Of a stretch of DNA of 22,462 bases, positions 1,780 to 18,041 are shown one piece after another. Every line of letters starts with the position of its first letter. The first letter of the stretch is position 1. The stretch lies in IMG/VR virus record IMGVR_UViG_3300021961_000697, positions 1-22,462 of that record; one strand, 5' to 3'. The notes beneath the pieces are model-generated. The model was not told the origin of the DNA. It did not search any database and was given only the letters and a program-made list of their open reading frames with translations. The DNA is from a virus. A program made the position numbers and the translations under genes.

Positions 1780-3308
1780 TGCTGTCAAGACTGTTCACAC
1801 AAGGCACCGAGGAGCGAGCAATCTCGTTCCAGTCGCTGTTCGCCGCAGGTGACGCATTCCAATTCACAACAAACTCTGGCACGGTAGTCACGCAAGAAGA
1901 TTCGTTGAAGATCGGAACCGTGTATGCGTGTGTTCGACTTATCGCCGACTCTATATCAACTCTGCCAGTCGATACCTACATCCGTGTCGACGGTGACCGC
2001 CGACCGTATCGACCACGACCTGAATGGGTTGACATGCCTGAGATCGGTGTGTCACGCACCGACCACTTCCAGCAGGTGCTTGTCTCGATGCTGTTGAACG
2101 GTAATTCGTTCACGCGCATCATTCGTGACGATGCCGGTGTTGCTGGTTTGGCTGTGTTGAATCCTTTGAAAGTTGAAGTGAAGCGCGACGAGTCACGCCG
2201 ACTTATTTATGTTTACGACAATCAGTACATCATCGAGCATGATGACATGATTCATCTGTCCGAGTTGCGTTTACCTGGCGATCTTCGTGGCCGTTCACGC
2301 ATCGAACTTGTGAAAGAGAATCTTGGTTTGTCGAAAGCTCTTGAAGAGTTCGCTGCACGATTCTTCGGTCAAGGTTCGCACACTTCTGGCATCATCGAGT
2401 TCCCAGGCAACTTGACCCGCGAACAAGCAAAGTCGCTTGTTGACGGATTCGAAGAAGGTCACAAAGGTTTGCGACGCTCACACCGACCAGGCATCCTGTT
2501 CGGCGGTGCGAAATACACGACAACTTCGGTCGCACCAGACGACTCACAATTCCTACAATCACGACAGTTCGCAGTCGAAGAGATTCTTCGCGCATTCCGT
2601 GTACCACCATCGATGGCTGGTGTAATCCAGTCAGGTGCGCAAGCATACGCTTCGGTCGAGATGAACGGGATTCATTTTGTGATGCACACACTCCGACCGT
2701 ATGTCACCAAGATTGAAGATGGCTATTCAAACAAACTTCTCACCAATGGTGCGTTCATGAAGTTCAACCTTGATGGTTTGATGCGCGGCGATTTCGGTTC
2801 GCGTGTCGCAGGATACTCATCAGGTCTGCAAGCTGGTTGGCTGTCAATCAACGATGTGCGACGCTTCGAAGATCTCCGACCAGCCGAAGGCGGCGATGCT
2901 TACCGTGTACCTCTCGCCAATGTCGATCTCGCTGCGGCTGGACTCACAGAACTTGACCGCAAAACAATGATGGCTCAACGCCTCATCAACGCAGGCTTCG
3001 AACCCGCATCAGTGTTGAAAGCACTTGACATCGAGCCGATCGCGCACACAGGTGTCGCACCAGTCTTGTTGCAACAAGTCACCGAACCAGCATCAACCTA
3101 CGATGTGAACCAGCGTGATGTGAATGTGACGATGCCTGAGGTCGTGGTGAATGTTCCGCCGGCGAATGTGAGTGTTGCTGCACCTGTGATCAATGTTCCT
3201 GAAACTGTGGTGCGTGTGAATGTGCCTGAGAACAAGCCGACTGTGCGAACTGTTGAGCGTGACGCCGAAGGTAGAATCTTGACAATCACTGAAAGGGTTG
3301 AAGAGTAA
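1779..3308 (+). CDS. Portal protein (HK97 family)
   Basis: This 509-residue protein forms the dodecameric ring at the capsid vertex through which DNA passes. Family features are visible in order: 'VYACVRLIADSISTLPV' at 48-64, 'LLNGNSFTRI' at 105-114, 'LPGDLRGRSRIE' at 165-176, 'FAARFFGQGSHTSGI' at 191-205, and 'FAVEEILRAFRVPP' at 264-277. Residues 441-509 form an unusual tail with repeated valine/proline units ('VNVPPANVSV', 'INVPETVVRVNVPE'), ending with 'RTVERDAEGRILTI'. Translation is probably coupled to the preceding small gene through TAATG. It also overlaps the next start by TAATG at 3306-3310. Confidence 0.93.
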   Translation: MLSRLFTQGTEERAISFQSLFAAGDAFQFTTNSGTVVTQEDSLKIGTVYACVRLIADSISTLPVDTYIRVDGDRRPYRPRPEWVDMPEIGVSRTDHFQQVLVSMLLNGNSFTRIIRDDAGVAGLAVLNPLKVEVKRDESRRLIYVYDNQYIIEHDDMIHLSELRLPGDLRGRSRIELVKENLGLSKALEEFAARFFGQGSHTSGIIEFPGNLTREQAKSLVDGFEEGHKGLRRSHRPGILFGGAKYTTTSVAPDDSQFLQSRQFAVEEILRAFRVPPSMAGVIQSGAQAYASVEMNGIHFVMHTLRPYVTKIEDGYSNKLLTNGAFMKFNLDGLMRGDFGSRVAGYSSGLQAGWLSINDVRRFEDLRPAEGGDAYRVPLANVDLAAAGLTELDRKTMMAQRLINAGFEPASVLKALDIEPIAHTGVAPVLLQQVTEPASTYDVNQRDVNVTMPEVVVNVPPANVSVAAPVINVPETVVRVNVPENKPTVRTVERDAEGRILTITERVEE

Positions 3309-3691
3309 TGGCTACAGGTTTATCGGCTTATCTTTGCAACTCGTTCCTTGACGCGCTCGGCAACGCAACTTCGTATTCGGTTGCGACCGTGTATATCAAA
3401 CTTCATGTCGGTGATCCAGGTGCGAACGGCACTTCGAATGCTGCGACCGAGACGACACGCAAATCTGTTTCGTTCGGTGCGGCGTCCGCTGGTGCGATCA
3501 CATCTGACGCCGATATCAGTTGGACGAATATCGCAGGTTCACAGGACGCAACACACTTCACCGCTTGGGACAACATCTCGGCAGGAAACTTCTTATTCTC
3601 TGGCACGATCACAGGCAACGCATACACCGCTGGTGACACTTACACAATCTCATCAGGCAATCTGTCTGCATCATTAACTGTCGCTAGTTAG
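3308..3691 (+). CDS. Small virion appendage protein (actinophage gp80-like)
   Basis: This 127-residue beta-rich protein starts 'MATGLSAYLCNSFLDAL', continues with 'ATVYIKLHVGDPG', then 'TTRKSVSFGAAS', and ends 'ISSGNLSASLTVAS'. This layout recalls a small structural protein family common in actinophages ('GLSxYLxNxxLD', 'xLYxALFTxDP', then beta strands), usually annotated as head or tail fibre/decoration. No catalytic motif is apparent. It overlaps the portal stop by one base (TAATG) and belongs to the same transcript. The family resemblance is from memory of sequence style, so the role as a capsid or tail surface component is an inference. Confidence 0.6.
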   Translation: MATGLSAYLCNSFLDALGNATSYSVATVYIKLHVGDPGANGTSNAATETTRKSVSFGAASAGAITSDADISWTNIAGSQDATHFTAWDNISAGNFLFSGTITGNAYTAGDTYTISSGNLSASLTVAS

Positions 3692-3700: not shown

Positions 3701-4453
3701 ATGGCGGTCAAAAGATTCCTGCTCGACACGAGCCAACTGAACGACGCAACCTACGGTCTTGATGGCGGTCAGGCATTCATTCTTGACAGCAGTCAACTTG
3801 ACGGCACACGAGTTCTTGACGGTGCAGAGTTCTTAACAACTGCGACCGGCACAGCCACACTCGGCGCAATGTCGGCGACCGCGACATCGAGCGTCACACA
3901 CTTCGCAACCGCTTCGGCTTTGCTCGGTGAACTTGTCGCCGAAGTTGCACAAGTCATCGTCACAACTGAAGCCACAGCCGAAGCAACTCTCGGCGGTCTT
4001 GCAAGTTCGACAACAGCAACAGTCACACATCCAGCGACAGCCTCGGCTGACCTTGGCGGTGTTGCTTCTTCGGCCACTGCCACAGTCGCACTACCTGCGA
4101 CAGCATCAGCGAACCTAGGCGGACTTGTCGCTTCGGCGATCACCGCAGTCGAACAAGAAGCAGTAGCCACAGCAAGTCTCGGTGGTCTTGTCGCGACAGT
4201 TAATTCGGTACCGACACCGCCAGAACCTGAGCCGACACCTGCGCCGTCTGGTGGTCGCAGAGTTTATTCAACAACTCCACGCAAGAAAATTGAACCGCTA
4301 GTCGAGATGCCACCAGTCGAGGTTCCTGTGATTGAACCGAAGAAACGCTATGCGGTTTCGTCAACTGTTCTTGGTGGGATGAGTTCGCAGGCGACAGCCG
4401 AAATTGCATTCAGTATTCTTGATGACGAAGCTGAACTATTATTGATGCTCTGA
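3701..4453 (+). CDS. Repetitive structural protein with FILD motifs
   Basis: This 250-residue protein of unrecognised family has three parts. Residues 1-45 hold two copies of a short motif, 'FLLDTSQLNDATYGLDG' at 6-22 and 'FILDSSQLDGTRVLDG' at 26-41. Residues 49-168 are five to six 21-residue Ala/Thr-rich repeats of the form 'TASAxLGGLxxSxxxxV'. A Pro-rich stretch (about 170-182) and basic residues near 184-196 lead to a last 'VLGGMSSQATAEI' unit and an acidic, hydrophobic C-terminus. Its position between portal and protease, the repeats, and the motif shared with the minor tail protein at 18044 suggest a virion surface or fibrous protein. No enzyme motif was seen. Confidence 0.7.
   Translation: MAVKRFLLDTSQLNDATYGLDGGQAFILDSSQLDGTRVLDGAEFLTTATGTATLGAMSATATSSVTHFATASALLGELVAEVAQVIVTTEATAEATLGGLASSTTATVTHPATASADLGGVASSATATVALPATASANLGGLVASAITAVEQEAVATASLGGLVATVNSVPTPPEPEPTPAPSGGRRVYSTTPRKKIEPLVEMPPVEVPVIEPKKRYAVSSTVLGGMSSQATAEIAFSILDDEAELLLML
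3845..4204 (+). repeat. Coding tandem repeats, about 63 nt units
   Basis: The DNA encodes five to six degenerate 21-residue repeats of Ala/Thr-rich sequence with 'LGG' or a near variant at a fixed position. Examples begin 'TASADLGGVASSATATV' and 'TASANLGGLVASAITAV'. The protein repeat is much clearer than the DNA repeat, which indicates an old duplication kept under selection on the protein. Confidence 0.75.
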
Positions 4454-4463
4454 GGTAACAATT

Positions 4464-4727
4464 ATGCCAATCAATAACGGAGCAATCACGGTCGGAACAG
4501 CAGCAACACTTGTCAGTCACGCTGGAGTCAATCCAGGCACTTTGCATATCAGCAATCTTGACAACACCGATACAGTGTTTATCGGCAACGCATCAGTCGC
4601 AGTGAACGCTGGTCATGCACTAGCGAAAAGCGCATCCGAAGACTTCGATATGTATCCAAGCGAAAGCATGTATGCAATATCCACCAAAGCCGGTCACATA
4701 ATTTCCTACGCATTGATCACTCCGTAA
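4464..4727 (+). CDS. Small beta-rich virion protein
   Basis: This 87-residue protein has alternating strands and Gly/Asn turns: 'AITVGTAATLVS', 'GTLHISNLDNTDTVFIGNASV', 'DMYPSESMYAIS'. The style matches small phage proteins found beside capsid genes and presumed to be decoration or fibre proteins, but no exact family is recognised. It has no membrane segment or signal peptide. Its TAA overlaps the ATG of the protease fusion (TAATG at 4725-4729), so the two are translationally linked. The ribosome site is weak. Confidence 0.55.
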   Translation: MPINNGAITVGTAATLVSHAGVNPGTLHISNLDNTDTVFIGNASVAVNAGHALAKSASEDFDMYPSESMYAISTKAGHIISYALITP

Positions 4728-6610
4728 TGCCTTACTTCATCACCGACAAATCACCAGACTGTTCTGGGTGGGCAACCATCAAAGAAGATGGTGAAGTGAT
4801 CGGATGCCACTCGACTAAACAAGATGCGATCGATCAGATGGTCGCCGTGTCTATTGCCGAGGATATGGAACCAGGTGGTGAACGCGCACCGGCACCACCA
4901 TCAGATCAGATCACAGGTAGCGACAAGAATCCTGCTGGGTCGGCGGCAGGTAAGCAAGGCGGGATAGAAATCAATGAAGCAACCGAGACGGCGTTGCGAA
5001 ACAAAGTGACCGATCACAACGAGAAGATGGATGCAGAGAATCGTCCTGTGTGGACTCGTGTGACGCTCGGTGTTTTGAAGTCTGTGTATCGTCGCGGTGC
5101 TGGTGCGTATTCAACTTCGCATCGTCCTGGTATTGGTCGTGCGCAATGGGCGATGGCGCGAGTGAATGCGTTCATGTATTTGAGTCGTGTTGGTCGTCCA
5201 GAGAATCCTGCCTACATCACAGACAATGATTTGTTGCATGTTGATCATCCGAAGTATTCGGCGGCTGACCGTGCGTTACCTGACAACTATCGGCCTGCGC
5301 TTTCGGCTGATGTTCCTGAAGGTCGTGCTTGCGGGAACTGTCACTTCTACGACGAAGACAATGTGCAAGGCGAAGGCGACAATCTCAAAGCATGGTGCGA
5401 AAGATGGGATGAGTATGTCGACGGCGGATTCTATTGCAACGCATGGCAACCACACGAAGAAGAAATGGAAGAAGAAGAAGAAGAAGAAGAAGAAGAGTCG
5501 GTTCGCCAAGTATCTCTTGAGATACCTGTCTACATTCGCAGCGCGGCAAGAAAAGGATTGGACTACTACGGTCAAGGTCTCGCGGGTGAAGGGCTGGTCG
5601 ATAGAACCGTTCGTGAAGCACGAGACATGGCACGAGGCCAAATCACGGAAGACAAAGTGATCCGTGCGAATGCTTGGGCGCAACGACACTCGGTAGACCT
5701 GCAAGCACCGAAGAACTCTGATGCAAGCAACGACCAGTTCCCTGGTGCGGGTGCGGTCGCACACTATCTGTGGGGAATCAACCCGTTGAACCCGCAACCG
5801 GCACGAGACTGGTTCGAGCGTAAAGCGAACGCGATCAAAGACGAACGAGGATTGTTCTCGTTTCATCGCGCCAAGACTGAATACTTTGCTAACATTCCAG
5901 GCATGGAAGACAACAAGGTTGAGACACGCCGCATCAATGTCAACGAGTTTGAACTTCGCGCAGGTCCGACTGGTGAAGGAATGTCATTCACAGGTTACGC
6001 AGCAGTCTTCAACTCAGACTCCGAACCACTACCGTTCATCGAGCGAATCGCACCAGGTGCATTCCGCAAATCGTTGAAAGGTCGCAACACAATCAAGATG
6101 TACATGAACCATGATTCGTCGATGCTTCTCGCTTCGACACGATCAAAGACTTTGCGACTTGAAGAAGATTCAAAAGGTTTGTTGGTGAACGCCGATCTGC
6201 CAGACACAACCGTTGGCCGTGACCTGAGCGTCCTCATGCAACGAGGCGATGTCGACTCGATGTCGTTCGGCTTCTCGGTTCCTGCCGGTGGAGACAAATG
6301 GTCAGATGATGGCATGACCCGCGAACTACGCCAAGTTCGTCTGCACGAAGTCTCGGTCGTTACAGGCTTCCCTGCCTACAAAGCCACATCGGCTTCAGTC
6401 CGTTCTCTTGACATGCTCGCAGAGCGCACAGGTGTTGACGCAGACAAGCTCGCCGAAGCGATCACGATGCTCGAATCTGGCAATACTTTGTCGGATGAGT
6501 CGGCTGATCTGTTGTCGAATGCGGTCAGCAAACTTCGTGCCGAACCAGCCAAAGTTCCTCACACGGTAAACTTGTTGGCGAAAAAACTTGAATTGTTGAA
6601 AAACTTCTAG
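4727..6610 (+). CDS. Multidomain prohead protease fusion (HK97 gp4-like C-terminus)
   Basis: This 627-residue protein is about three times the usual size of a prohead protease. Residues 395-565 are the protease: 'FTGYAAVFNSDSE' at 421-433, 'IERIAPGAF' at 438-446, H462 in 'YMNHDSS', S513 in 'DSMSFGF', and E541 in 'LHEVSVV' as candidate third catalytic residue. It should cleave the capsid delta domain. Ahead of it lie a 'CSGWxxxxxxGxxxGCH' segment (12-28), a conserved-looking domain with 'VYRRGAGAYSTSHRPG' (120-135) and 'DNDLLHVDHP', a four-Cys segment (C202, C205, C224, C237), a run of ten Glu (248-257), and a domain with 'AARKGLDYYGQGLAGEGL' (273-290) and 'GAVAHYLWG'. These non-protease domains recall uncharacterised phage domains. 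The frame is continuous with no stop or frameshift. Confidence 0.88.
   Translation: MPYFITDKSPDCSGWATIKEDGEVIGCHSTKQDAIDQMVAVSIAEDMEPGGERAPAPPSDQITGSDKNPAGSAAGKQGGIEINEATETALRNKVTDHNEKMDAENRPVWTRVTLGVLKSVYRRGAGAYSTSHRPGIGRAQWAMARVNAFMYLSRVGRPENPAYITDNDLLHVDHPKYSAADRALPDNYRPALSADVPEGRACGNCHFYDEDNVQGEGDNLKAWCERWDEYVDGGFYCNAWQPHEEEMEEEEEEEEEESVRQVSLEIPVYIRSAARKGLDYYGQGLAGEGLVDRTVREARDMARGQITEDKVIRANAWAQRHSVDLQAPKNSDASNDQFPGAGAVAHYLWGINPLNPQPARDWFERKANAIKDERGLFSFHRAKTEYFANIPGMEDNKVETRRINVNEFELRAGPTGEGMSFTGYAAVFNSDSEPLPFIERIAPGAFRKSLKGRNTIKMYMNHDSSMLLASTRSKTLRLEEDSKGLLVNADLPDTTVGRDLSVLMQRGDVDSMSFGFSVPAGGDKWSDDGMTRELRQVRLHEVSVVTGFPAYKATSASVRSLDMLAERTGVDADKLAEAITMLESGNTLSDESADLLSNAVSKLRAEPAKVPHTVNLLAKKLELLKNF
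5468..5497 (+). repeat. GAA trinucleotide run
   Basis: Nine GAA triplets and one GAG encode ten consecutive Glu (residues 248-257 of the protease fusion). They lie just after the four-Cys segment and separate it from the next domain. The tract could vary in length between phage copies without breaking frame. On the opposite strand it gives a meaningless poly-Phe reading. Confidence 0.9.
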
Positions 6611-6625
6611 ATTCTCGTCTATAGT
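6597..6625 (+). promoter_or_regulatory. Sigma70-type promoter for the capsid gene
   Basis: TTGAAA at 6597-6602 and TATAGT at 6620-6625 are each one base from consensus and are separated by exactly 17 nt. The promoter overlaps the end of the protease gene and lies about 110 nt upstream of the major capsid ATG. Transcription would start near 6632, the first base of the leader hairpins. It would give the capsid gene its own strong transcript, which suits the protein needed in the largest amount. Confidence 0.7.
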
Positions 6626-6631
6626 TCATTG

Positions 6632-6656
6632 AGTCGGTAAGCGTCCCGCTACGACT
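6632..6656 (+). promoter_or_regulatory. Leader hairpin 1 of capsid mRNA
   Basis: An outer stem AGTCG/CGACT (6632-6636 with 6652-6656) and an inner stem AGCG/CGCT (6640-6643 with 6647-6650) enclose a TCC loop. It carries the first copy of GGTAAGCGTCCCGC (6636-6649). It sits at the predicted 5' end of the capsid transcript. Confidence 0.6.
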
Positions 6657-6659
6657 AGA

Positions 6660-6683
6660 GATTGGTCAGCGTCCCGCGCCATC
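6660..6683 (+). promoter_or_regulatory. Leader hairpin 2 of capsid mRNA
   Basis: Arms GAT-GG and CC-ATC close around GCG/CGC with the same TCC loop, with small bulges at 6663 and 6667-6668. It carries the second copy, GGTCAGCGTCCCGC (6664-6677), which matches copy 1 at 13 of 14 positions and starts 28 nt later. The apex is identical in both hairpins while the flanking stems differ, which is what a conserved RNA binding or stabilising element would look like. Confidence 0.55.
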
Positions 6684-6735
6684 GGAATACAACCTTCCTG
6701 CGCATACCCAATCAACTACTACTCATGGAGAAATC

Positions 6736-7932
6736 ATGAAACAATTTATCGAACAACAAATGGAAGCCCGTGCAAAAGCATGGGAAGCCGCAAAGAAGAT
6801 TCTTGATGTTGCAACCGCAGAAAAGCGTGACTTGACAGCAGAAGAATCACAGTCATACGAGCGCATCAGCAAAGAACTTGAGGATCGCCAAGCAACAATC
6901 GAGAAGCTCCGCGCCGATGAGGCTCGTGAACTTCGTTTGGATGCAGCAACACGCGAGTTCGCAGACCAGGTTCGTCCTGTCGCTGACGCACCACGCGGTG
7001 TTCGTTCAGATGCCGATGTCATCCGCTCGATGGCAAAAGGCGAGATCCGTTCACACTCGTTTGAAAAGCGCGATGTCGTAAAGACTTCGACTGGTTCACC
7101 AGTACCAACATCGTTCTACGACCAAGTCATCATGCTTGCTCGTCATGTTGGTCCGATGCTCCAGACTTCAACAATCTTGAACACGGCATCAGGTGAGAAC
7201 CTTCAGATTCCATCGCTTGCTCAGTATTCAACTGCGGCAATCACTGGTGAAGGCACAGCAATCGCTGAGAGCGATCCGGTATTCAACTCGTTCATCACCT
7301 TGGGTGCATACAAGTATTCGTTCCTCGTGCAACTCTCAACAGAGTTGATCGAAGACAGCGGTGTTGACATCCTCGGATTCTTGGCAACCGAAGTCGGCAA
7401 CGAACTCGGCTACCGAGTCAACGCAGCATTGACAACTGGTACAGGCACAAACCAACCAAAAGGTATCGTCGCAGCATCTGCTGCCGGCGTAACTGGCGGA
7501 ACGGGTGTGTCGGGTGCGTTCACAGCAGACAACTTGATCAGCTTGGTCTACTCGGTAGACACAGCAGGTCGTCGTTTGGCTGGTTCGGGCTTCCAGATGA
7601 ACTCGTCTTCAATCGCGAAGATGCGCTCTCTCAAAGACACAGCCGGGAATTACGTATTCTCGCCTGCACTCAACGCCGATGCACAAGACTTGCTCTTGGG
7701 CTACCCGGTCTACGAGAACCCAGCAATCGTTGACACAGGACTTAGCGCGAAGTCGGTAATCTTCGGACACCTTCCTTCGTACTATGTTCGTCAAGTTGGC
7801 GGCATCAAGTTGGATCGCAGCGATGACTACGCATTCAACGCAGGCCTTGTTACCTTCCGCGCAACAATGCGTGTTGACGGCAACTTGCCACAAACATCAC
7901 ATGTCAAACACTTCATCGGTAACGCTGCTTAA
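6736..7932 (+). CDS. Major capsid protein (HK97 fold)
   Basis: This 398-residue precursor forms the icosahedral shell. Residues 1-75 are highly charged and helical (coiled-coil delta domain, the built-in scaffold). A variable basic segment around 85-115 is the likely protease cleavage region. The capsid fold follows, with 'SPVPTSFYDQVI' at 121-132, 'GEGTAIAESDPVF', 'FLVQLSTELIEDS', 'TGTGTNQPKGIV' and a terminal 'FRATMRVDGNLP'. These are typical HK97 family landmarks and the length is normal. The start is fixed by GGAG at 6727-6730, 5 nt before the ATG. It has its own promoter, leader and terminator, so it is probably the most strongly expressed gene here. Confidence 0.94.
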   Translation: MKQFIEQQMEARAKAWEAAKKILDVATAEKRDLTAEESQSYERISKELEDRQATIEKLRADEARELRLDAATREFADQVRPVADAPRGVRSDADVIRSMAKGEIRSHSFEKRDVVKTSTGSPVPTSFYDQVIMLARHVGPMLQTSTILNTASGENLQIPSLAQYSTAAITGEGTAIAESDPVFNSFITLGAYKYSFLVQLSTELIEDSGVDILGFLATEVGNELGYRVNAALTTGTGTNQPKGIVAASAAGVTGGTGVSGAFTADNLISLVYSVDTAGRRLAGSGFQMNSSSIAKMRSLKDTAGNYVFSPALNADAQDLLLGYPVYENPAIVDTGLSAKSVIFGHLPSYYVRQVGGIKLDRSDDYAFNAGLVTFRATMRVDGNLPQTSHVKHFIGNAA

Positions 7933-7956
7933 TTAGAGCAACCGATAACAGACATG

Positions 7957-7974: not shown

Positions 7975-7984
7975 GACTAGGATT

Positions 7985-8024
7985 AAGCCTCGGCAAGGTC
8001 GTGCAGGACTTGCCGAGGCTTTCC
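7985..8024 (+). terminator. Terminator-like hairpin between capsid and modification genes
   Basis: A perfect 13-bp stem (7985-7997 with 8009-8021; core GCCTCGGCAAG) has an 11-nt loop and is followed by TTTCCTGT. The T-run is short, so termination may be partial. It would lower expression of the downstream glycosyltransferase cassette relative to the capsid. Confidence 0.75.
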
Positions 8025-8042
8025 TGTATCTGCACTAAACTT

Positions 8043-8051: not shown

Positions 8052-8276
8052 ATGTGGGAAAAAGTAATAGTCAAAGGACGACCGGTGGAGATGCCGGGAT
8101 ATTTAGCGGAGCGTTTGCTCCGAGCGGGCGTAGCGCACTTGTTGGAAACATCCGACCTGCCAATCCCGACAGACTCCGAGTCCTCTGGTATAGCAACGCA
8201 CCTTGGAGTGCCACAGGATACGGACAACAAACCGCACAAGTCATCCAAAGGCTCGCGAAAGAAGGCCACCAAGTAG
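8052..8276 (+). CDS. Small protein overlapping the GT4 gene
   Basis: This 74-residue protein begins 'MWEKVIVKGRPVEMPGYLAERLLRAGVAHLL', written here only to show its fold-like character: a short beta hairpin then a helix ending in 'LLRAGV'. This resembles small 'LLxxGxVxxv' phage proteins found near capsid genes. The remainder, from about residue 36, is polar and ends in Lys-rich 'SSKGSRKKATK', so it looks disordered. It lies almost wholly within the glycosyltransferase reading frame (223 nt shared). Function is unknown. A longer version starting at 8001 would begin inside the terminator and is less likely. Confidence 0.6.
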   Translation: MWEKVIVKGRPVEMPGYLAERLLRAGVAHLLETSDLPIPTDSESSGIATHLGVPQDTDNKPHKSSKGSRKKATK

Positions 8277-9349
8277 CGGTCCACGCAATGTACGGACTTG
8301 CGGGTTCGTCATCGGTTTGGAATGGTTTCAAAATCTATCCGCAAGGATTGGCTGCATACAGCGACGATGTACTTGTCGCACACACAATGGAATGGGCGAA
8401 CCAAGATCTGTCGACACCGACATTGATGATGACTTTGTTTGATGTGTGGGTGTTGAAATCTGAATCGTTGAAAACTTGGAAGAACATCGCGTCATGGGTT
8501 CCTATCGATCATCAGCCGACACCGCCAGATGTGTTGGCTTGGTGTGAGCGCGACAATGTAAAACCAATCGCGATGTCGAAGTTTGGTTCACGAATGTTTG
8601 ACTTGGCAGGTGTCGAGCATCTTTATGTTCCTCACGCAATCGAACCTGTGTTTCAGCCAACCGAGTCGGTGACTTTGGCGAATGGCAGAAAGATGACTGG
8701 CCGAGAGTTCATGGGTTGGGAAGAAGACAGATTCGTGGTGTCGATGGTTGCGACGAACAAAGGTGCGCAACCTGCCCGTAAGGCTTGGGCCGAGAACATT
8801 CTTGCATTCTCGATCTTCGCCAAAGATCATCCTGATGCGGTGCTGTATCTGTACACCGAGCCTGATGGTGCGATGGCTGGTATCAACCTGCCGACATTGT
8901 TGGATGCGGTCGGCATATCAAAAGACAAATATAAAGTCGTTGACCAGTACGCCTATCGGCACGGCATGCCACAGAATGTGATGGCTGCGATGTACACGGC
9001 GTCCGATGTTCTGTTGGCTTGCTCGATGGGTGAAGGTTTCGGTATACCTGTCATCGAAGCGCAGGCTTGCGGTTGTCGTGTGATTGTCTCAAACTTTACG
9101 GCACAACCTGAGCTGGTTGGTGAAGGTTGGACGGTTGAGGGTCAGCCTTGGTGGGATGCGGCGCAACGCTCATGGTTCTTCACACCTAATGTCCCTGACA
9201 TCGTGAATGCCCTCAAAGCGGCCTATAACGCGCCTAGGAGCCGTTCTCAGGACGCCATAACCCATGCCCAAGGGTATGGAGCCGACACCGTATTTGAGCA
9301 GTATTGGAAGCCTGTAATGAAGGAGTTGTCCGCATGGTGCCGGTCGTAA
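8054..9349 (+). CDS. Glycosyltransferase, GT4-type (GT-B fold)
   Basis: This 431-residue enzyme is predicted to transfer a sugar from a nucleotide-sugar donor. Residues 41-60 'LRVLWYSNAPWSATGYGQQT' give the first Rossmann strand and glycine-rich loop. The donor domain has 'GEGFGIPVIEAQACG' at 326-340 with the E-x7-E pair E327/E335, followed by 'IVSNFTAQPELV'. Residues 1-40 look unstructured and are encoded in the stretch shared with the small ORF. There is no in-frame ATG, GTG or TTG between the GTG at 8054 and the Met near residue 79, which is too late for the fold, so the GTG is the only usable start. It is the first gene of a six-gene modification cassette. The acceptor is not known; the capsid is the obvious candidate. 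Confidence 0.85.
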   Translation: MGKSNSQRTTGGDAGIFSGAFAPSGRSALVGNIRPANPDRLRVLWYSNAPWSATGYGQQTAQVIQRLAKEGHQVAVHAMYGLAGSSSVWNGFKIYPQGLAAYSDDVLVAHTMEWANQDLSTPTLMMTLFDVWVLKSESLKTWKNIASWVPIDHQPTPPDVLAWCERDNVKPIAMSKFGSRMFDLAGVEHLYVPHAIEPVFQPTESVTLANGRKMTGREFMGWEEDRFVVSMVATNKGAQPARKAWAENILAFSIFAKDHPDAVLYLYTEPDGAMAGINLPTLLDAVGISKDKYKVVDQYAYRHGMPQNVMAAMYTASDVLLACSMGEGFGIPVIEAQACGCRVIVSNFTAQPELVGEGWTVEGQPWWDAAQRSWFFTPNVPDIVNALKAAYNAPRSRSQDAITHAQGYGADTVFEQYWKPVMKELSAWCRS

Positions 9350-9987
9350 TCATCCCAGTCTTAAACCGATACGACCTACTTGAACGCTGCATAGATTCAC
9401 TCGACTTCCCAGTCGACAAGATCATCATCATCGACAACGGAGGCAAGATCGAAGAGGATTGTTTGGTGATGCCACGCCACAGTCGGCACGGCAAAACCTA
9501 CATCTTGGACATGCCAAGCAATCTTGGTGTGGCGACATCTTGGAATCTTGGAATCAAGATGACACCGTTCGCATCTGGTTGGATTCTTCTCAACTCGGAC
9601 GCCTGGTTCATGCCAAACAAACTTGAACAATTCTGGGAACAGTGCTACCCGAACGAGATACATCTGACAGGTTCACCAGAATGGGCTTGTGCATGGATCG
9701 GTTCAAGCGTCGTCAAAGATGTCGGTCTGTTCTGTGAAGCATTCCATCCTGCCTACTTCGAAGACAACGACTATGAGCGTCGCGCTGTGCGTCTCGGCAA
9801 AACAATCCGCAAATCACAAGACATCATCATGCACGACAACTCGTCAACACTTCTATCCGATGTCGCCTATCAGGCAAAGAACTCGGCGACATTCAACTCG
9901 AACCACGAACTGTTCAAGTTGCGTAACGCACGACTTGACGCAGGTCAATGGGATCTGCAACGCCGACTAGACCTGAGTTGGGATTGA
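9334..9987 (+). CDS. Glycosyltransferase, GT2-like (GT-A fold)
   Basis: This 217-residue protein starts with 'PVVIIPVLNRYDLLERCIDS' (3-22), the typical GT2 opening, followed by 'IIIIDNGG', 'NLGVATSWNLGI' (63-73) and an 'NSD' metal-binding variant of DxD at 87-89. Acidic 'FEDNDYERR' at 142-150 is a plausible catalytic-base region. I chose ATG 9334 because AGGAG at 9321-9325 precedes it by 8 nt and the conserved fold starts immediately. It overlaps the previous gene by 16 nt and abuts the next by TGATG. Donor and acceptor are unknown. Confidence 0.82.
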   Translation: MVPVVIIPVLNRYDLLERCIDSLDFPVDKIIIIDNGGKIEEDCLVMPRHSRHGKTYILDMPSNLGVATSWNLGIKMTPFASGWILLNSDAWFMPNKLEQFWEQCYPNEIHLTGSPEWACAWIGSSVVKDVGLFCEAFHPAYFEDNDYERRAVRLGKTIRKSQDIIMHDNSSTLLSDVAYQAKNSATFNSNHELFKLRNARLDAGQWDLQRRLDLSWD

Positions 9988-10553
9988 TGGCCAAATACCA
10001 CAAGTATCTCGGCGAACATCCCGATGTCGAAGCGATGTACCAAGCAGAGGACGCCGAAGAGTTTGATGCCTGGTATCAGTCGGATCTGCGACCGATGGGA
10101 TACCGCCTTCTTTCAACAACGATGAACGCATTCTCGTTCAACACGATTCTTGACATTGGTTGCGGCAAAGGTACACAAACACATCTGATGGCGTTACGCA
10201 ACCGAAAGATTGTCGCCTACGACATCTCGCCAACCGCGATACGCAAAGCAAAAGCGTCATACCCTGGTATCGACTTTCGTGTCGGTGATGGTCTGACCGC
10301 AGCGAAGTCAGGTGAATACGATTGTGCGGTCATGTCGCAAACCTTGTACATGCAACCCGACTGGCAACAAGTGATCGCCGAAACAGCAAAGCGATGCGAC
10401 TGGCTTATCGTCCACGAGTATGTCCCGTTGAAGACTCAATGGTGTGTGCCGGACATACAAAGTTTGCAAGCCGAGTTTGAGAAACATTGTTCCATTGACA
10501 CGAAGATTGTGATGAACGACAACCGCATACTGCTAATAGGAGAGACACGCTGA
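9987..10553 (+). CDS. SAM-dependent methyltransferase (class I)
   Basis: This 188-residue protein has the S-adenosylmethionine loop 'ILDIGCGKG' at 54-62, the acidic residue after strand 2 ('VAYDIS', D79), and 'FRVGDGL' at 97-103. It begins directly at the TGATG junction with the GT2 gene and ends at TGATG with the GT17 gene, so it is an integral part of the cassette. The context suggests O-methylation of a sugar, or another glycan-capping step, rather than DNA methylation. No DNA methyltransferase motif of the NPPY type is seen. Substrate is inferred only. Confidence 0.8.
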   Translation: MAKYHKYLGEHPDVEAMYQAEDAEEFDAWYQSDLRPMGYRLLSTTMNAFSFNTILDIGCGKGTQTHLMALRNRKIVAYDISPTAIRKAKASYPGIDFRVGDGLTAAKSGEYDCAVMSQTLYMQPDWQQVIAETAKRCDWLIVHEYVPLKTQWCVPDIQSLQAEFEKHCSIDTKIVMNDNRILLIGETR

Positions 10554-11287
10554 TGAGAGTCTTTGATTGCATCCTGTTCAACCAAGAACACGACATGCTC
10601 GAATGTCGACTATCAGAGATCGGCGAAGTCGTAGACAAGGTCATCATCGTCGAATCATCCACGACCTTTATGGGTCAACCCAAACCACACGGCATAGACC
10701 TTGACAGGCTGTACAAATGGCGAGACAAAATCCACTACGAAACATTTGAACCAAACCCGTATCAACTTGGCTGGGCCGCAGAACACGCACAACGCGACCA
10801 CCTGTTTGTCGCGCTACAACAATTCTCACCAGAAGCACAAGACATTGTGACGGTCGCAGACTGTGACGAGATATGGAACCCAGCCGACATCGAGATATTG
10901 AAAGAAGGTTGGCGTGGCTACATCATGAAGCGTCTAGTCATGTCCGCCTATTGGCGTCTATCGGACGAACACACAATGGTTGCAGGACCTTACGGTCAAC
11001 GCGCTGGTGGTGCGCAACACATACGCTCGAATCGTGAACGGCTACCGAACCTGCGATCAGGTTGGCATGTGTCGTGGATGGGTGGACCTGAATGGGCTGC
11101 GAACAAAATGCGATCCTTCTCCCACCAAGAACTTATGGTCGATGACCCTGAAGGATTCATGGCTGAGAACTATCGGATCGGTCGCTCGATACGCGGCGAA
11201 CAGTTGATCGAAGTACAAATGGATGATTCATGGATTGAGTGGATTCGTGAAGGGAAGGCTCCGTTGTCGTGGTACCGTCGCCGGTAG
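10553..11287 (+). CDS. Glycosyltransferase, GT17-like
   Basis: This 244-residue protein opens with 'MRVFDCILFNQEHDMLECRL' (1-20), then 'KVIIVESSTTFMGQPKP' (29-45), and has 'VADCDEIW' with D103/D105 as a DxD-type site. Near the C-terminus 'SGWHVSWMGG' and 'KMRSFSHQE' complete the GT17 pattern, a family that includes N-acetylglucosaminyltransferases. AGGAGA at 10538-10543 precedes the ATG. It overlaps neighbours on both sides (TGATG, and 19 nt with the next gene). The exact sugar cannot be told from sequence. Confidence 0.82.
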   Translation: MRVFDCILFNQEHDMLECRLSEIGEVVDKVIIVESSTTFMGQPKPHGIDLDRLYKWRDKIHYETFEPNPYQLGWAAEHAQRDHLFVALQQFSPEAQDIVTVADCDEIWNPADIEILKEGWRGYIMKRLVMSAYWRLSDEHTMVAGPYGQRAGGAQHIRSNRERLPNLRSGWHVSWMGGPEWAANKMRSFSHQELMVDDPEGFMAENYRIGRSIRGEQLIEVQMDDSWIEWIREGKAPLSWYRRR

Positions 11288-11934
11288 CAATCATCTCACC
11301 ATTCGAGCAAAACTATTGGGATCGGTTCGGTGCGAACTTTGTTGCATCCATTGAGGCGTTGACGGTCAAACCGCAAGAGGTGATTCTGGTGACGACCGCC
11401 AGAGTTGATGTGCCTGACTGGTGGAAGGTTGTCCCATATTGGGATGATCGGATCTGGCCGTGTGTGAATGTTGGTGTGCGTGAAGCAACAGCCGAATGGT
11501 GTACACATCTGCCAGTCGATGACCTGATGGACGCAAACTTCTTTGACGGTTTGATTCTTGAAGGTGACGCGGTGAATGTGCGCGGTCGGTGGAATGGCGG
11601 TTTGTGTTACGGCACACCTGACCAATATCAGAACCTGCTCAATATGCGAAACAACGGTATGCCAGGGCTTGCGGTTATTCGTCGCAAAACTTGGTTGAAG
11701 ATTCCTTACCGTTCCCACAAATATGTTGACTGGGTTCATTGGTGCGAGATGCGTTCACACAATGTTCAGGCATCGTTTGATTCGCGTTGTGTGTGGACTT
11801 GGGTTCGACATGATGATGCGTTGACGGCACAGTCTGATCATCAGGCTGAGCAGGATGTGATTAACTTCTGTGGGTTGTTGAAGTCGGGTCGGGTTGTGCC
11901 TGGTGAGGATTGGCCGCCGAAGTTGGCTGAATGA
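11269..11934 (+). CDS. GT-A-like glycosyltransferase, divergent
   Basis: This 221-residue protein starts at GTG within the end of the GT17 gene. Features compatible with a GT-A fold are 'VAIISPFEQNYWDRF' (6-20), 'PQEVILVT' (35-42), a 'PVDDLMD' acidic segment at 82-88, and 'VDWVHWCEMRSHNV' (153-166). The family is less certain than for its neighbours; a degenerate or specialised GT2 is the best guess. Position inside the cassette and the ATGA overlap with the next gene support a role in the same pathway. Confidence 0.6.
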   Translation: MVPSPVAIISPFEQNYWDRFGANFVASIEALTVKPQEVILVTTARVDVPDWWKVVPYWDDRIWPCVNVGVREATAEWCTHLPVDDLMDANFFDGLILEGDAVNVRGRWNGGLCYGTPDQYQNLLNMRNNGMPGLAVIRRKTWLKIPYRSHKYVDWVHWCEMRSHNVQASFDSRCVWTWVRHDDALTAQSDHQAEQDVINFCGLLKSGRVVPGEDWPPKLAE

Positions 11935-12548
11935 TTCTCCAAGACTTGAAAGATCGCCACAAAGGTGAACAGGTTTGGGTGTGTGGTTCTGGTCCAAGTA
12001 TGGGATGGGTGACACCACAGTTCTTCGAAGGCAAAACTGTGGTCGCAATCAACGAGGTTGGATTCGTGTTCGGACTTGAAGACTTCTATACGGCGACAAA
12101 CTATTCAACTCATCATCCTGTAGTGGCGGGCAATGTGGCTGCAAACCCGCATCAAATCTTCGTCACACCAGACATGAACTTGGAAGCAAGCGACATGACT
12201 GCGACGCATGTCGGGTCAGGTAATCACATCACCTTCCGACCACATGCACCATTCTGGCGACCTGATACCGACTGGCCGACCGACCCAGATGTGCTGATTA
12301 CTGGTGGCACTTCGGCACATATCGCAATGCACCTTGCCTGCTATATGGGTGCGTCACAAATCAACCTTGTCGGTGTTGACCTCGGACTTGTTGATGGGCA
12401 GGAGAACTTCGCTGGGTATCGCAAGTCGAATGGTGCGATGGATGGTTGGCGTCAACAGTTCGGTGTGGTTGTCAACAAGTTGCGTGAGTTGTATGGAGTA
12501 AGATTCTTCAGACTTCAGCCATCACTTGAGTTGTTGATTGTTGAGTAG
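11931..12548 (+). CDS. DUF115/Maf-like (possible glycan transferase)
   Basis: This 205-residue protein has 'WVCGSGPSM' at 16-24, then 'KTVVAINEVG', and a second conserved block 'GGTSAHIAMHLACYMG' (125-140) followed by 'INLVGVDLG' (144-152). This arrangement resembles DUF115 proteins, which include Maf-type flagellin glycosyltransferases, and more loosely some sialyltransferase-like folds. It closes the modification cassette and overlaps the previous gene by ATGA. The enzymatic activity is an inference from context. Confidence 0.6.
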   Translation: MILQDLKDRHKGEQVWVCGSGPSMGWVTPQFFEGKTVVAINEVGFVFGLEDFYTATNYSTHHPVVAGNVAANPHQIFVTPDMNLEASDMTATHVGSGNHITFRPHAPFWRPDTDWPTDPDVLITGGTSAHIAMHLACYMGASQINLVGVDLGLVDGQENFAGYRKSNGAMDGWRQQFGVVVNKLRELYGVRFFRLQPSLELLIVE

Positions 12549-12559
12549 GATAGGAACCT

Positions 12560-13186
12560 ATGAGTATCGTCAATGGTTACGCGACCAGAAATCAAATTAA
12601 AGCCGCGCTCAGAATCGGCACAGCCGACACACAAGACGACGAACTCATAGACAACTGCGCCGGTGCAGCCAGTCGACTCATTGACGGTTATGCAAACCGA
12701 CAGTTCTGGGCATATGGTTCAGCGACGACACGAGTGTTCACCGCAGGTGACGAGTATGTATGCGAGATTGACGACATCTCTTCATCGACATTAACTCTCA
12801 AAACTTCGACTATGGCTGACGGCAACTTTGATGTCACATGGTCAGCGACCGATTATCAGTTGGAACCAGTGAACGGAATCTTGGATGGACTGACAGTTCC
12901 TTACACACGCATCCGTGCAGTCGGCGACTATCTGTTCCCAACCTTAAACGCAAACTACGGCTCGGAAGCATTAGTACAACTGACCGCAGTTTATGGTTGG
13001 CCGTCTGTGCCTGAGCCGATCACACAAGCCGTCATCATTCAGGCGTCAAGAATCTTCAAGCGTTACGATTCACCGCTCGGCGTTGCCGGCTTCGGAGACT
13101 TGGGTGCGATACGAGTGACACGCGCACTCGACCCAGATGTCGCACAACTAGTCGAGCCATATCGCCGAATGCGAATGTTTGCATGA
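12560..13186 (+). CDS. Head-tail connector (gp6-like adaptor)
   Basis: This 208-residue protein has 'ATRNQIKAALRIGTADTQDD' near the N-terminus, 'LIDNCAGAASRLIDGYANRQF' as helices, a beta-rich middle with 'VNGILDGLTVPYTRIRAV', and 'AVIIQASRIFKRYDSPLGV' near the end. This is the pattern of gp6-type connectors, which bind under the portal ring. Length is within the range for actinophage connectors. It overlaps the following gene by ATGA. Confidence 0.8.
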   Translation: MSIVNGYATRNQIKAALRIGTADTQDDELIDNCAGAASRLIDGYANRQFWAYGSATTRVFTAGDEYVCEIDDISSSTLTLKTSTMADGNFDVTWSATDYQLEPVNGILDGLTVPYTRIRAVGDYLFPTLNANYGSEALVQLTAVYGWPSVPEPITQAVIIQASRIFKRYDSPLGVAGFGDLGAIRVTRALDPDVAQLVEPYRRMRMFA

Positions 13187-15222: not shown

Positions 15223-15936
15223 ATGTTTGAAGTCGTCGGGTTCCCATCAGTCAAATCTGTCTACCCAAAGACCATCGCAACATCTTGGATGGACTTTGCA
15301 GCGATGCTCAGCAACCATCAGGAACGAGCAAACAAGTCCGATGGTTCGCTGTACTCGCCAGTCACCTATCGCGAGTACACGACTCGTGGTAATCGCAATG
15401 TGCAACACATCTGGGCGTTAGTCGCCGACCTTGACGGCGAAGCATTCGAGCAGGCTGATCTTGGATCGTATATACACTTTGCCTACACAACCTGGTCACA
15501 TCGCGAAGACGATCCTCACTGGCATATCGTCGTGCCATTCGAGCAGGCCGTGCCGGTGCAGAATTGGGAAGAGGTTTGGTATGAGACACATGAGCGACTT
15601 CGTCTCAAAGGCGACCCAGCAACCAAAGACCCAGCGCGTATCTTCTATTTGCCACAGCATGAGGCAGGTCAACCATTCCGCACACATCATTCAGGTTGGC
15701 GATTCCTTGACCCAACCATCACCGACATCGCAGCACCGACACGCACATTCTCCACACCAAACATTCGCACGACTCGTCAGCCTCGTCGCGGTAATCCGAT
15801 GCGATGTGTTCTTGACCCGAAGTGGTGGTCTGCTCCGATTGATATGTCGCAATACGATGGCATGACGCAACAAGAGCTTCATAAGGACATGCAACGCGAG
15901 TGGGCTGAACTGCGTAAACGGATGCTCGCTGACTGA
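15223..15936 (+). CDS. Primase-like / Rep-like protein (AEP-type domain)
   Basis: This 237-residue protein has 'WALVADLDG' (64-72) with D69/D71 as a D-x-D pair, 'AYTTWSHREDDPHWHIVVPF' (87-106) with H101 leading a hydrophobic strand, then 'GDPATKDPARIFYLPQHEAG' (130-149). These match, in order, the acidic pair, the His-bearing strand and the 'DPxRxfYLP' block of archaeo-eukaryotic-type primase or Rep proteins in phages and plasmids. The helicase part of such proteins is absent; the C-terminus is short and helical ('MTQQELHKDMQREWAELRKR'). It is oddly placed between the gp10-like and tape measure genes. The ribosome site is strong. DNA priming or replication initiation is a family-based inference. 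Confidence 0.65.
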   Translation: MFEVVGFPSVKSVYPKTIATSWMDFAAMLSNHQERANKSDGSLYSPVTYREYTTRGNRNVQHIWALVADLDGEAFEQADLGSYIHFAYTTWSHREDDPHWHIVVPFEQAVPVQNWEEVWYETHERLRLKGDPATKDPARIFYLPQHEAGQPFRTHHSGWRFLDPTITDIAAPTRTFSTPNIRTTRQPRRGNPMRCVLDPKWWSAPIDMSQYDGMTQQELHKDMQREWAELRKRMLAD

Positions 15937-15953: not shown

Positions 15954-18041
15954 ATGGCAGGTGAGCGCACATTTCTTGTAAGACTTCTCGGCAACGCCGA
16001 CGGTGCTGTCGCTGCATTCAAGAAACTAGGTAAAGAGGGTGAACGAACTCTTGACCAGATGAAGACGGTAGGCAATGCGCTAGGTGGCGCATTTGATGTA
16101 GTGCGCAAAGCCGCATTCATTGCAGTCGGCGCATTCACAGCAGTCGCTGGTGCGGCAACAGCCGCAGCATTGGCCGCAGCCGAAGACGAACAATCACAAC
16201 GAAGACTCGCTAGCCAACTTGAACGAACCACAGGCGCATCAAAACTACAAGTCGAAGCCATTGAACGGTTCATTACTTCGGCGATGCTCGCAACCGGAGT
16301 TGCCGACACAGATCTTCGCAACGGCTTTGCAAACCTAGCGCGAGCCACAGGTGACGCAACACAATCACAGCGTCTCCTCAATCTTGCGTTGGATATCTCA
16401 GCGGCAACTGGCAAAGACTTAGAAAGCGTCACGATTGCTCTTGGCAAAGCTAGTTCTGGTCAGGTAACTGCATTAAGCAAACTCGGAGTCCCGATCGACG
16501 AGAACACAAAGAAAAGTAAAGACTTTACTTCGGCACTTGGTCAACTTGAAGCACAGTTTGGTGGAGCGGCAGCGGCATCAGCCGACACATTCTCTGGCCG
16601 AATGAAAATACTTCAAGCATCGCTCGGCGAAGTAGTTGAGTCAATAGGTTTTGCACTATTGCCATTCTTTGAAAAGATGGTCAAGTTCATTCAAGACAAC
16701 ATCCTTCCAGCACTTATCGCGTTTGCAGATAATGTTGGCGAATATGGCATAGTCAAAGCCATCGGATTTGCAATCAATGCGATGGGTGATCTTGGCATCA
16801 CCTTCCTTGACACTCTTGAAGGAATGACTCTGGCGGTCTTGAACTTCTTGAAAAACTTTGCTGATCTTGGTCGAACCATTGCATTGACCGTTGGCTTTAC
16901 GGCCGCATTGACAGGCAATGCAATTTTAGCGGTCAAAGCAACCGCAGCATCATTGGCATTCAAAGCTGCACAACAAGGATTGAATACCGCACTTGAAGCC
17001 ACACCTCGACTATTTGACAGCATCCGAGCATCTATGGCTCAAGCCGCAGTAATCCAAGCAAGAGCCTTACCAAGCATCATTGGTACAGCAGACGCACTAG
17101 AACGACAAGTTCTTGCCGGCAAGAAAAACATTGTTGTTGAAACTGAACAAATCAGCGTTGGTGGTGGCGTTGCCAAGACGGTTGAGACAGCCAAACAGAA
17201 GTTCGAGAAGTACACCGATGCGTTGAAGTCTTCGACATCTGCACAGAAGGCATTCAACAATGCGCAGAAGGGTAGTGCGCAAGCCGCCGACAATTTGAAA
17301 GCGGCACAGGATGATGTGTTCGCCAAACAGAAGGCATTGAACGATGCGGTCAATGGGTTCGGTGCAGATTCTGATCAGGCCAAGAAGGCTCAACGGGAAT
17401 TGTCACAGGCTCAACGCACTGTTGCGCAGGCTGGATTCCGTGTGGAGGAAGCGGTGTTTGCGGTTGCTGACGCTGAGAAGGTATTGGCTGAACTTCGAGC
17501 TGATCCGACATCCAGTGCGCAAGCAATTCGTCAGGCAGAGATTGACTTGGCACAAGCAAAGTTGGCTGTCGCCGATGCAAGCGATTCAGAGTTTGAGGCA
17601 ACGAACAAACTGAAAGATGCACAACTTGTTTTGAACGAAGCGGTGAGCGGTGCGATTGTCGGTTCTGATACTTACAACAAACTTCTTGAAGCAGTTGAAG
17701 ACGCGAAGATTAAAGAGAAGGAAGCATCAGATCGTTTGACTGATGCTGTTGAGCGTGAGACGGAAGCCTATGAGAATCTCGCCGAGGCGATCAAGAAGGT
17801 TGCCGATGCCGCAGCAACTATGCCTAACCGAACTGGTTTGACTATCCCAACCTTGCCGGCTGTGCCGACACCTACGACAACGACTGGTGGCGGTACTTCG
17901 ACTGGTGGTGGTACAACGGTGGTCAATGTCAATACAGGCATCGGCACGAATGGTATTGAGGCTGGTCGGCAGATTGTGGAAGTGTTGCAGTCATATTCAC
18001 GGATCGCTGGCAACAACTTCCTTGAGTTCGCGGTTGCGTAA
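15954..18041 (+). CDS. Tape measure protein
   Basis: This 695-residue protein sets tail length and is extruded during DNA ejection. It has a hydrophobic segment at 53-76 ('AAFIAVGAFTAVAGAATAAA'), a tape-measure core with 'LNLALDISAATGKDLESV' (142-159) and 'GKASSGQVTALSKLGVPID' (164-182), 'FSGRMKILQASLGEVVESIG' (213-232), more hydrophobic helices near 290-340, and a long charged coiled-coil from about 408 to 620. A 'TTTTGGGTSTGGGTT' linker precedes the C-terminal 40 residues. At about 0.15 nm per residue the tail would be near 100 nm. It starts 17 nt after the primase-like gene with only a weak ribosome site. Confidence 0.93.
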   Translation: MAGERTFLVRLLGNADGAVAAFKKLGKEGERTLDQMKTVGNALGGAFDVVRKAAFIAVGAFTAVAGAATAAALAAAEDEQSQRRLASQLERTTGASKLQVEAIERFITSAMLATGVADTDLRNGFANLARATGDATQSQRLLNLALDISAATGKDLESVTIALGKASSGQVTALSKLGVPIDENTKKSKDFTSALGQLEAQFGGAAAASADTFSGRMKILQASLGEVVESIGFALLPFFEKMVKFIQDNILPALIAFADNVGEYGIVKAIGFAINAMGDLGITFLDTLEGMTLAVLNFLKNFADLGRTIALTVGFTAALTGNAILAVKATAASLAFKAAQQGLNTALEATPRLFDSIRASMAQAAVIQARALPSIIGTADALERQVLAGKKNIVVETEQISVGGGVAKTVETAKQKFEKYTDALKSSTSAQKAFNNAQKGSAQAADNLKAAQDDVFAKQKALNDAVNGFGADSDQAKKAQRELSQAQRTVAQAGFRVEEAVFAVADAEKVLAELRADPTSSAQAIRQAEIDLAQAKLAVADASDSEFEATNKLKDAQLVLNEAVSGAIVGSDTYNKLLEAVEDAKIKEKEASDRLTDAVERETEAYENLAEAIKKVADAAATMPNRTGLTIPTLPAVPTPTTTTGGGTSTGGGTTVVNVNTGIGTNGIEAGRQIVEVLQSYSRIAGNNFLEFAVA

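Follow-up and report, generated by a model that had tools for sequence, protein, structure and literature searches.

The question raised by this locus is what is modified by a block of six enzyme-type genes lying between the major capsid gene and the head-tail connector gene of a phage. The window, by which we mean the whole stretch of 22,462 nt that was analysed (IMGVR_UViG_3300021961_000697), is a partial genome of a freshwater-type phage, with the early region outside it. A first-pass annotation had read the block as a cassette that assembles a methyl-capped sugar chain, probably on a virion protein, in an Acidimicrobiia-like phage. From the gene families, their placement and comparison with relatives, we regard it as probably a virion-glycosylation cassette with virion proteins as putative acceptors. 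The Acidimicrobiia host is unsupported, as the nearest named relative is from Pontimonas (Microbacteriaceae) and a capsid profile run against 84,980 genomes gave a single match, 33 % identical, in a Micromonosporaceae MAG.

Organisation of the cassette

All six ORFs are real genes under purifying selection (median dN/dS 0.11–0.20), and they follow one another in the order GT4, GT2, SAM methyltransferase, GT17, GT-A-fold transferase and DUF115/MptE-like gene (Table 1). The overlaps of 1–19 nt first reported were measured as 16, 1, 1, 19 and 4 nt along this order, and an 11-nt gap separates the last gene from the connector. Profile matches to the genes on either side bear out the placement between capsid and connector, and the connector is 87–99 % identical across relatives. 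The GC content of the cassette is close to that of the rest of the window (51.0 % versus 51.5 %), which speaks against a foreign base composition and gives no sign of recent import.

Table 1. Features of the window discussed in the text
Feature	Position	Strand	Evidence
Ser/Thr/Ala-repeat protein (candidate acceptor)	3701–4453		
Major capsid protein, HK97 type (left flank)	6736–7932	+	PF05065 (Phage_capsid) E 7e-57; phrog_10 1.6e-69
Strong hairpin, capsid gene to cassette	about 7985–8022	+	fold of 7975–8040, MFE -31.5, z -5.48
74-codon ORF; 74-aa protein across GT4 start (candidate acceptor)	8052–8276	+	ATG directly after AGGAGG-ATC; overlaps GT4 5' end in another frame
GT4-family glycosyltransferase (GT-B)	8054–9349	+	PF00534 E 4.5e-11; phrog_2170 1.4e-32
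GT2-family glycosyltransferase	9334–9987	+	PF00535 1.7e-8; phrog_29879 (galactosyl transferase) 4.9e-43
Class I SAM-dependent methyltransferase	9987–10553	+	PF13649 5.3e-13
Variable slot	9988–12559	.	80 loci, eight architectures
GT17-family glycosyltransferase	10553–11287	+	PF04724 3.8e-22
GT-A-fold glycosyltransferase	11269–11934	+	AlphaFold2 pLDDT 90.2, pTM 0.89; Foldseek
DUF115/MptE-like (Maf-related) protein	11931–12548	+	PF01973 3.7e-8; phrog_4603 alpha-2,3-sialyltransferase 3.1e-4
Head-tail connector, gp6-like (right flank)	12560–13186	+	phrog_442 (PHROG head-tail adaptor) 8.9e-14
Secreted Ser/Thr-rich PA14 protein (candidate acceptor)	20872–22350		

The GT4–GT2 pair and its overlapping ORF

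The first two genes are the constant part of the cassette, both being present in all 80 cassette-bearing relatives fetched for comparison (about 60 of them distinct), with GT2 as the conserved second gene. GT4 scores 43 bits against PF00534 (cut-off 26.4), retains the EX7E motif in 70 of 72 distinct copies and has a dN/dS of 0.115; the corresponding values for GT2 are 35 bits against PF00535 (cut-off 23.3), an NSD (DxD-like) motif in 64 of 65 copies and a dN/dS of 0.144. The start of GT2 was corrected to the ATG at 9334, with AAGGAG 8 nt upstream.

GT4 starts at a GTG 2 nt inside the ATG of the 74-codon ORF, and its core begins at about 8174. The ORF, which is absent from the first-pass annotation, is exactly 74 codons long in every distinct relative; codon-phase entropy indicates that its frame is constrained across codons 1–30 and that synonymous variation in GT4 is suppressed across codons 61–70. 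A frameshift origin for the GT4 N-terminus was considered and is unlikely: of 66 sequences only 3 contain a strict slippery heptamer, and all keep the GT4 reading frame uninterrupted as far upstream as the GTG. This predicted out-of-frame ORF across the GT4 start is new here.

The hairpin between the capsid gene and the cassette was likewise missing from the earlier annotation. From its predicted fold it is a probable attenuator or terminator separating the two, and similar sequences were found by reading 3' of the capsid gene in phage phiPsal1 (MG835450, deposited in 2018) and in cassette-free relatives.

An exchangeable slot between GT2 and the connector

The four remaining genes occupy a slot that is filled differently among relatives. 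The methyltransferase, whose start was corrected to the ATG at 9987, has class I motifs and profile matches, and all 18 distinct copies contain motif I. GT17 scores 79.3 bits against PF04724 (cut-off 26) and a divergent copy in one relative 79.8 bits; the DxDEIW motif is present in 38 of 38 copies. The next gene has no sequence-family match in Pfam or PHROG profile searches, and it is from its modelled structure that we are confident of a GT-A glycosyltransferase fold: the best Foldseek match was the fucosyltransferase WrtF (E 8.6e-10), followed by RmlT, TarS, TarP and the K4 chondroitin polymerase, and the acidic metal-binding motif is present, with D84–D85 and D154–W155 invariant across 16 members.

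The label DUF115/Maf-like is a tentative one for the last gene. The ORF is real and its GSGP motif is found in 14 of 14 copies, but the PF01973 match covers residues 121–154 only and, at 33.8 bits, lies just under the cut-off of 34.6. A profile comparison with the PDB gave no match, and the structure model failed (pLDDT 32), nine close copies making too shallow an alignment. It is possibly a sialyl- or nonulosonate-type transferase, as judged from its profile matches.

Comparison of gene order in related phages, which the first-pass annotation had proposed, showed a constant GT4–GT2 pair and a variable slot. The cassette lies between capsid and connector in every carrier, and eight different gene contents occur in the slot among the 80 loci. 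Mapped onto the capsid-gene tree, these contents require at least 18 changes, where the lowest possible number is 7 and shuffling gives 42.8. Near-identical phages differ by a single exchanged or added slot gene: L038 and L115 share 97.9 % identity along 5.4 kb up to and including GT17, carry a different last transferase and have connectors 91 % identical, and L076 has one transferase more than L058 between flanks that are 94 and 93 % identical. The slot is exchanged among related phages while its two conserved flanks are kept, and this combinatorial slot is new here. In five more-distant relatives the capsid gene directly adjoins the connector, so the cassette is accessory.

What does the cassette modify?

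Three kinds of target were weighed. One possibility is that the enzymes alter glycans on the wall or surface of infected cells, for instance to block superinfection or to keep progeny from adsorbing to debris. Serotype-conversion-type transferases act so in other phages (PMC12619734), the structural neighbours of the GT-A gene include the teichoic-acid transferases TarS, TarP and RmlT, and exchange of outer enzymes could follow host glycan types. However, the cassette proteins all lack a membrane-like segment (highest Kyte-Doolittle value for any 19-mer, 1.28), no GtrA, GtrC or flippase-type gene lies in the cassette, which separates it from serotype-conversion (Gtr) clusters, a scan of early-region ORFs from a near-complete relative of 35.8 kb found no integrase family, and the cassette sits within the late structural region. 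We consider this explanation unlikely.

Decoration of modified phage bases against restriction is less probable still. Hypermodification of DNA by transferases of other phages is referenced in PMC12619734, and DNA methyltransferases are present in one relative and in phiPsal1. Against this, the cassette is in the structural and not the replication region, the ten larger early ORFs that were scanned from the 35.8-kb relative include no hydroxymethylase or other base-hypermodification family, and no base-hypermodification gene is annotated in phiPsal1; on those two sets of genes the phages do not belong with the T4-type DNA-glycosylating systems. DNA glycosylation is not known for the GT17 or DUF115 families.

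Glycosylation of virion proteins is the best explanation because the enzymes appear soluble, base-hypermodification genes were not found in the genes just described, and mycobacteriophage Corndog, whose virion glycosylation is proven, has an analogous cassette. Together with the placement, this favours the virion acceptor first proposed, which stays a candidate. The acceptor could be one repeat-rich or small phage protein and not the capsid, a narrower version that we think unlikely. Ser/Thr-rich stretches are typical O-glycan acceptors. Three proteins come into question (Table 1): the Ser/Thr/Ala-repeat protein, the PA14 protein, which all 16 records tested from the window's lineage contain, and the 74-aa protein, whose ORF is physically tied to GT4. 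However, GT4 of phiPsal1 occurs without the 74-codon ORF, and searches with the PA14 protein matched neither of two phiPsal1-like records that carry the cassette (L125 and L160), so neither of these two proteins is a general acceptor for the GT4–GT2 pair. Against the virion reading as a whole, the capsid C-terminus is not obviously rich in Ser/Thr. The cassette-free relatives carry similar capsid proteins, so the sugars would be dispensable for assembly there, and this similarity does not indicate where an acceptor site might lie. The position beside the capsid gene can alternatively be a tolerated insertion site.

In the virion-glycosylation model, GT4 would start the chain on at least one structural protein in the cytosol during head or tail assembly, GT2 would attach the second sugar, and the GT17, GT-A, DUF115-type and methyltransferase enzymes would extend and cap the outer chain, with host sugar nucleotides as donors. 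The methyl-capped glycan built in steps, as first suggested, fits the families and the GT-A fold; we infer the order of steps and the sugars, as also the protein acceptor, the surface exposure and the benefit. Recombination at gene boundaries, with a conserved flank on either side, would swap the outer enzymes and leave phages that are otherwise alike with different surface glycans. The benefit may lie in evading, or attaching to, something by which the particle is recognised.

Relationship to known systems

The cassette had been thought undescribed, which holds only in part, as its kind has precedents. The closest described here is in phiPsal1, where GT4, a methyltransferase and GT2 occupy the same site, between capsid and neck gene (GT4 41 %, GT2 40 % and capsid 45 % identical). 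That cassette differs in having three genes only, without GT17, GT-A or DUF115 genes, and in its methyltransferase, which is on the minus strand and not clearly of the same family as the one here (30 % identity over 43 residues). Downstream of its capsid region, Microcystis phage Mae-JY09 (PP395641) also has a GT4 (38 % identical), with three further genes before the head-tail adaptor, but one of these three is an NAD-dependent epimerase (PF01370), which suggests its own sugar-nucleotide supply, and there is no GT17 or DUF115 match.

In the cluster O mycobacteriophages Corndog and Firecracker, three transferases and an O-methyltransferase form a block of overlapping genes within the head module. 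Theirs lies between portal and protease and has its own families (a TylF methyltransferase and the GT25-like gp36), and gp33–gp36 of Firecracker (Corndog-type) show no significant similarity to any cassette protein. Virion proteins of Corndog are glycosylated. Virion glycosylation of the mycobacteriophage type (Che8, Corndog, Myrna) is marked by glycans on capsid and tail-tube subunits; the results of Freeman 2023 are taken here from PMC12363180, PMC11256854 and PMC12619734, and gp38 is reported to be essential for capsid glycosylation in Corndog (PMC12363180, citing Freeman 2023). As the Firecracker comparison yielded no gp38-type homologue, the cassette may work like the Corndog type without being a member of it.

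In logic only, the arrangement recalls bacterial O-antigen-type and teichoic-acid loci, with constant first enzymes and exchangeable outer ones; unlike these, it is cytosolic, has few genes and no flippase or polymerase, and lies within a phage structural operon. What does appear new for phages, within the 50,697 phage records searched, are the GT17 and DUF115 components, neither of which was matched there (tblastn for GT17, E <= 1e-5).

Implications

The overlapping starts of the 74-codon ORF and GT4 offer a compact test case for translation of two frames from a single ribosome-binding site. More broadly, we put forward, at a little under an even chance, that aquatic actinophages possess a combinatorial glycotype locus, in which a GT4–GT2 priming pair and exchangeable outer transferases between capsid and connector would vary the virion glycan as O-antigens are varied, under selection by something that recognises virions in water. 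Proof of virion glycosylation is confined to a few mycobacteriophages, where it was shown to shield from mammalian antibodies. Such antibodies are no explanation for virion sugars in lake water, where, if the proposal is true, host defence, grazers or particles are possible selectors. With outer enzymes exchanged naturally and cassette-free relatives as natural controls, selection for sugars on the particle becomes directly testable.

Composition of the cassette

The window of 22,462 bases is an entire IMG/VR record but an incomplete genome, its nearest relatives measuring 31-36 kb and the nearest named one, Pontimonas phage phiPsal1 (MG835450), 31 kb. The six open reading frames that the first-pass annotation had reported at 8054-12548 were all found there, with the starts of the GT2 and methyltransferase genes corrected to the ATG codons at 9334 and 9987. 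With these starts successive genes overlap by 16, 1, 1, 19 and 4 nt, and 11 nt separate the last gene from the connector. Five genes have profile matches, that of the DUF115/MptE-like gene falling just under the cut-off; the gene termed GTx was assigned no family by Pfam and PHROG profile searches, and a structure model was built from 16 family members found in relatives (pLDDT 90, pTM 0.89). The model's best solved-structure neighbours (the WrtF fucosyltransferase, E 8.6e-10, RmlT, TarS, TarP and K4 chondroitin polymerase) and its viral neighbours, which include many phage GT-A proteins, identify GTx as a GT-A glycosyltransferase. Each of the six genes evolves under purifying selection, with a median dN/dS of 0.11-0.20 (capsid gene 0.175, connector 0.102), and catalytic motifs are preserved across the relatives' copies.

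Features of the window discussed in the text
Feature	Coordinates	Strand	Profile matches or description
Gp80-type phage fiber match	3308-3691		PF23140; adjoins the next gene
Repeat protein	3701-4453		Ala/Ser/Thr-rich; between portal and protease
Prohead protease	4727-6610		PF04586; long N-terminal extension with DUF5824 domain and Glu-rich run
74-codon ORF	8052-8276	+	ATG three bases after AGGAGG
GT4	8054-9349	+	PF00534 4.5e-11; phrog_2170 1.4e-32
GT2	9334-9987	+	PF00535 1.7e-8; phrog_29879 4.9e-43
Class I SAM methyltransferase	9987-10553	+	PF13649 5.3e-13
GT17	10553-11287	+	PF04724 3.8e-22
GTx	11269-11934
DUF115/MptE-like	11931-12548	+	PF01973 33.8 bits (cut-off 34.6); weak phrog match labelled alpha-2,3-sialyltransferase
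237-aa gene	15223-15936		No known family; between tail and tape-measure genes
Tape measure	15954-18041		37-95% identity among relatives, far more variable than head genes
PA14-domain protein	20872-22350		Secreted (signal-peptide-like); long Thr/Ser-rich mucin-like stretch

An overlapping reading frame at the GT4 start

The GT4 frame opens with a GTG two bases past the ATG of a 74-codon ORF (ATGTGG), in a different frame. Across the distinct relatives examined (70 in one comparison, 74 in another) the ORF is always exactly 74 codons long and the GT4 frame runs uninterrupted from the GTG; among 70 distinct relatives the latter frame holds no other ATG, GTG or TTG upstream of the conserved core RLRxxWYSNAPW. 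Codon-phase entropy shows the ORF frame constrained at codons 1-30 (first twenty codons: third positions 0.73-0.75 bits, other positions 0.12-0.33) and the GT4 frame constrained from codon 41 or so onward. At codons 61-70, which in the ORF specify a basic tail (KPRKSSKGSRKK), GT4 synonymous variation drops to 0.17 from 0.7-1.0, which is evidence of dual coding there. Third positions where T would create a GT4-frame stop carry T in 0/350 cases, against 81/1485 elsewhere, a count from related sequences and so not a probability; with synonymous codons shuffled, 21% of draws still lack a stop in the GT4 frame. Slippery heptamers hardly occur. On the simplest reading, one ribosome-binding site would feed two start codons in different frames, which we infer rather than observe because codon 2 is always tryptophan and the GTG thus partly forced. 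As far as our searches show, such an out-of-frame double start is new.

An exchangeable slot among relatives

Searching viral contigs with the GT4 and capsid proteins gathered some 120 loci, and the placement first proposed, exactly between capsid and connector, recurs wherever both ends are present, in the order capsid, 74-codon ORF/GT4, GT2, slot (the stretch from GT2 to the connector), connector. Identity to the window is 83-96% for the capsid, mostly 86-97% for GT4 and 87-99% for the connector, with GT2 more variable (60 to 100%). Slot content differs: 80 loci (about 60 distinct sequences, some contigs having been fetched twice) hold eight gene sets. The window's own, methyltransferase-GT17-GTx-DUF115, occurs at 21 loci, GT17-F5 at 18, GT17b-F6-F5 at 12, GTx2 at nine, F6 at eight, F9-F5b at six, GT17b-F6 at four and GT17-GTx3 at two. 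Among these slot genes of relatives, F5, F9 and GTx2 clearly match phage glycosyltransferase PHROGs (2.7e-5 to 3e-13), GTx3 does so weakly (0.009), and F6 found no family in profile searches.

On a capsid-gene tree (67 rows, 42 different) at least 18 changes of slot set are needed, more than the theoretical minimum of 7 and fewer than the 42.8 obtained by shuffling; the sets are therefore inherited, yet also repeatedly exchanged. Two pairs show clean single events: L038 and L115 are 97.9% identical for 5.4 kb through GT17, differ in their last transferases and have connectors 91% identical, and L076 carries one transferase gene more than L058 between flanks 94% and 93% identical.

A second search, with the phiPsal1 capsid, gave 80 further loci, most with GT4 directly after the capsid gene, in many followed by GT2; three have GT2 alone. 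At five (L181, L184, L185, L190, L202) only a hairpin-like stretch lies between capsid and connector, and the 28,964-base record behind L190 has no match to PF00534 or PF00535 anywhere. Given these empty sites, the cassette is accessory, and dispensable for particle production in the cassette-free phages. Within our searches, this naturally occurring combinatorial slot, with whole genes cleanly exchanged and relatives whose site is empty, appears to be new.

Precedents and host

In cluster O phages the head module includes an O-methyltransferase together with three transferases (PMC4351075), as seen in the Firecracker record, and PMC12363180 describes Corndog gp38 as essential to capsid glycosylation. 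The cassette resembles these in having a methyltransferase and transferases in the head module; unlike them, its enzymes are not homologous to those of Firecracker, so the comparison is one of working alike, not of membership. A cassette of this composition had been thought undescribed in an Acidimicrobiia-like phage, and its place and general composition do have precedents, in phiPsal1, Corndog and Mae-JY09. The GT17 and DUF115 proteins matched nothing among 50,697 phage records and, as far as could be searched, seem new to such cassettes. The suggested Acidimicrobiia host found no support; phiPsal1 points to a probable actinobacterial host.

Proposed function and acceptor

Family knowledge and the Corndog precedent suggest that the cassette most likely glycosylates virion proteins. 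Modification of DNA by its enzymes is unlikely, because a scan of the ten larger ORFs in the early region of a 35.8-kb relative (L207) found no base-hypermodification enzyme; it did find two DNA methyltransferases, a primase-polymerase and a VanY-type endolysin. The two methyltransferases of L207 are a C5 cytosine enzyme (6556-7947) and a ParB-N6/N4 methyltransferase fusion (2381-3649). Modification of the host envelope is less likely, since no membrane-like segment was seen in any of the six cassette proteins and the cassette lies in the late structural region.

For virion glycosylation, candidate acceptors besides the capsid are two Ser/Thr-rich proteins, the repeat protein, possibly a head fiber, and the PA14-domain protein. 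The latter was found in 16/16 longer records of the window's lineage and in none of the phiPsal1-like records tested. The phiPsal1 host genome is reported to hold genes for use of fucose, sialic acid and KDO (PMC6106888); this would agree, though only suggestively, with the slot genes that resemble fucosyltransferases and sialyltransferases. A constant GT4-GT2 pair followed by exchangeable enzymes is the pattern expected if the pair's opening steps depend on a conserved protein acceptor and the slot enzymes act afterwards and determine the outer glycan, an order that we infer.
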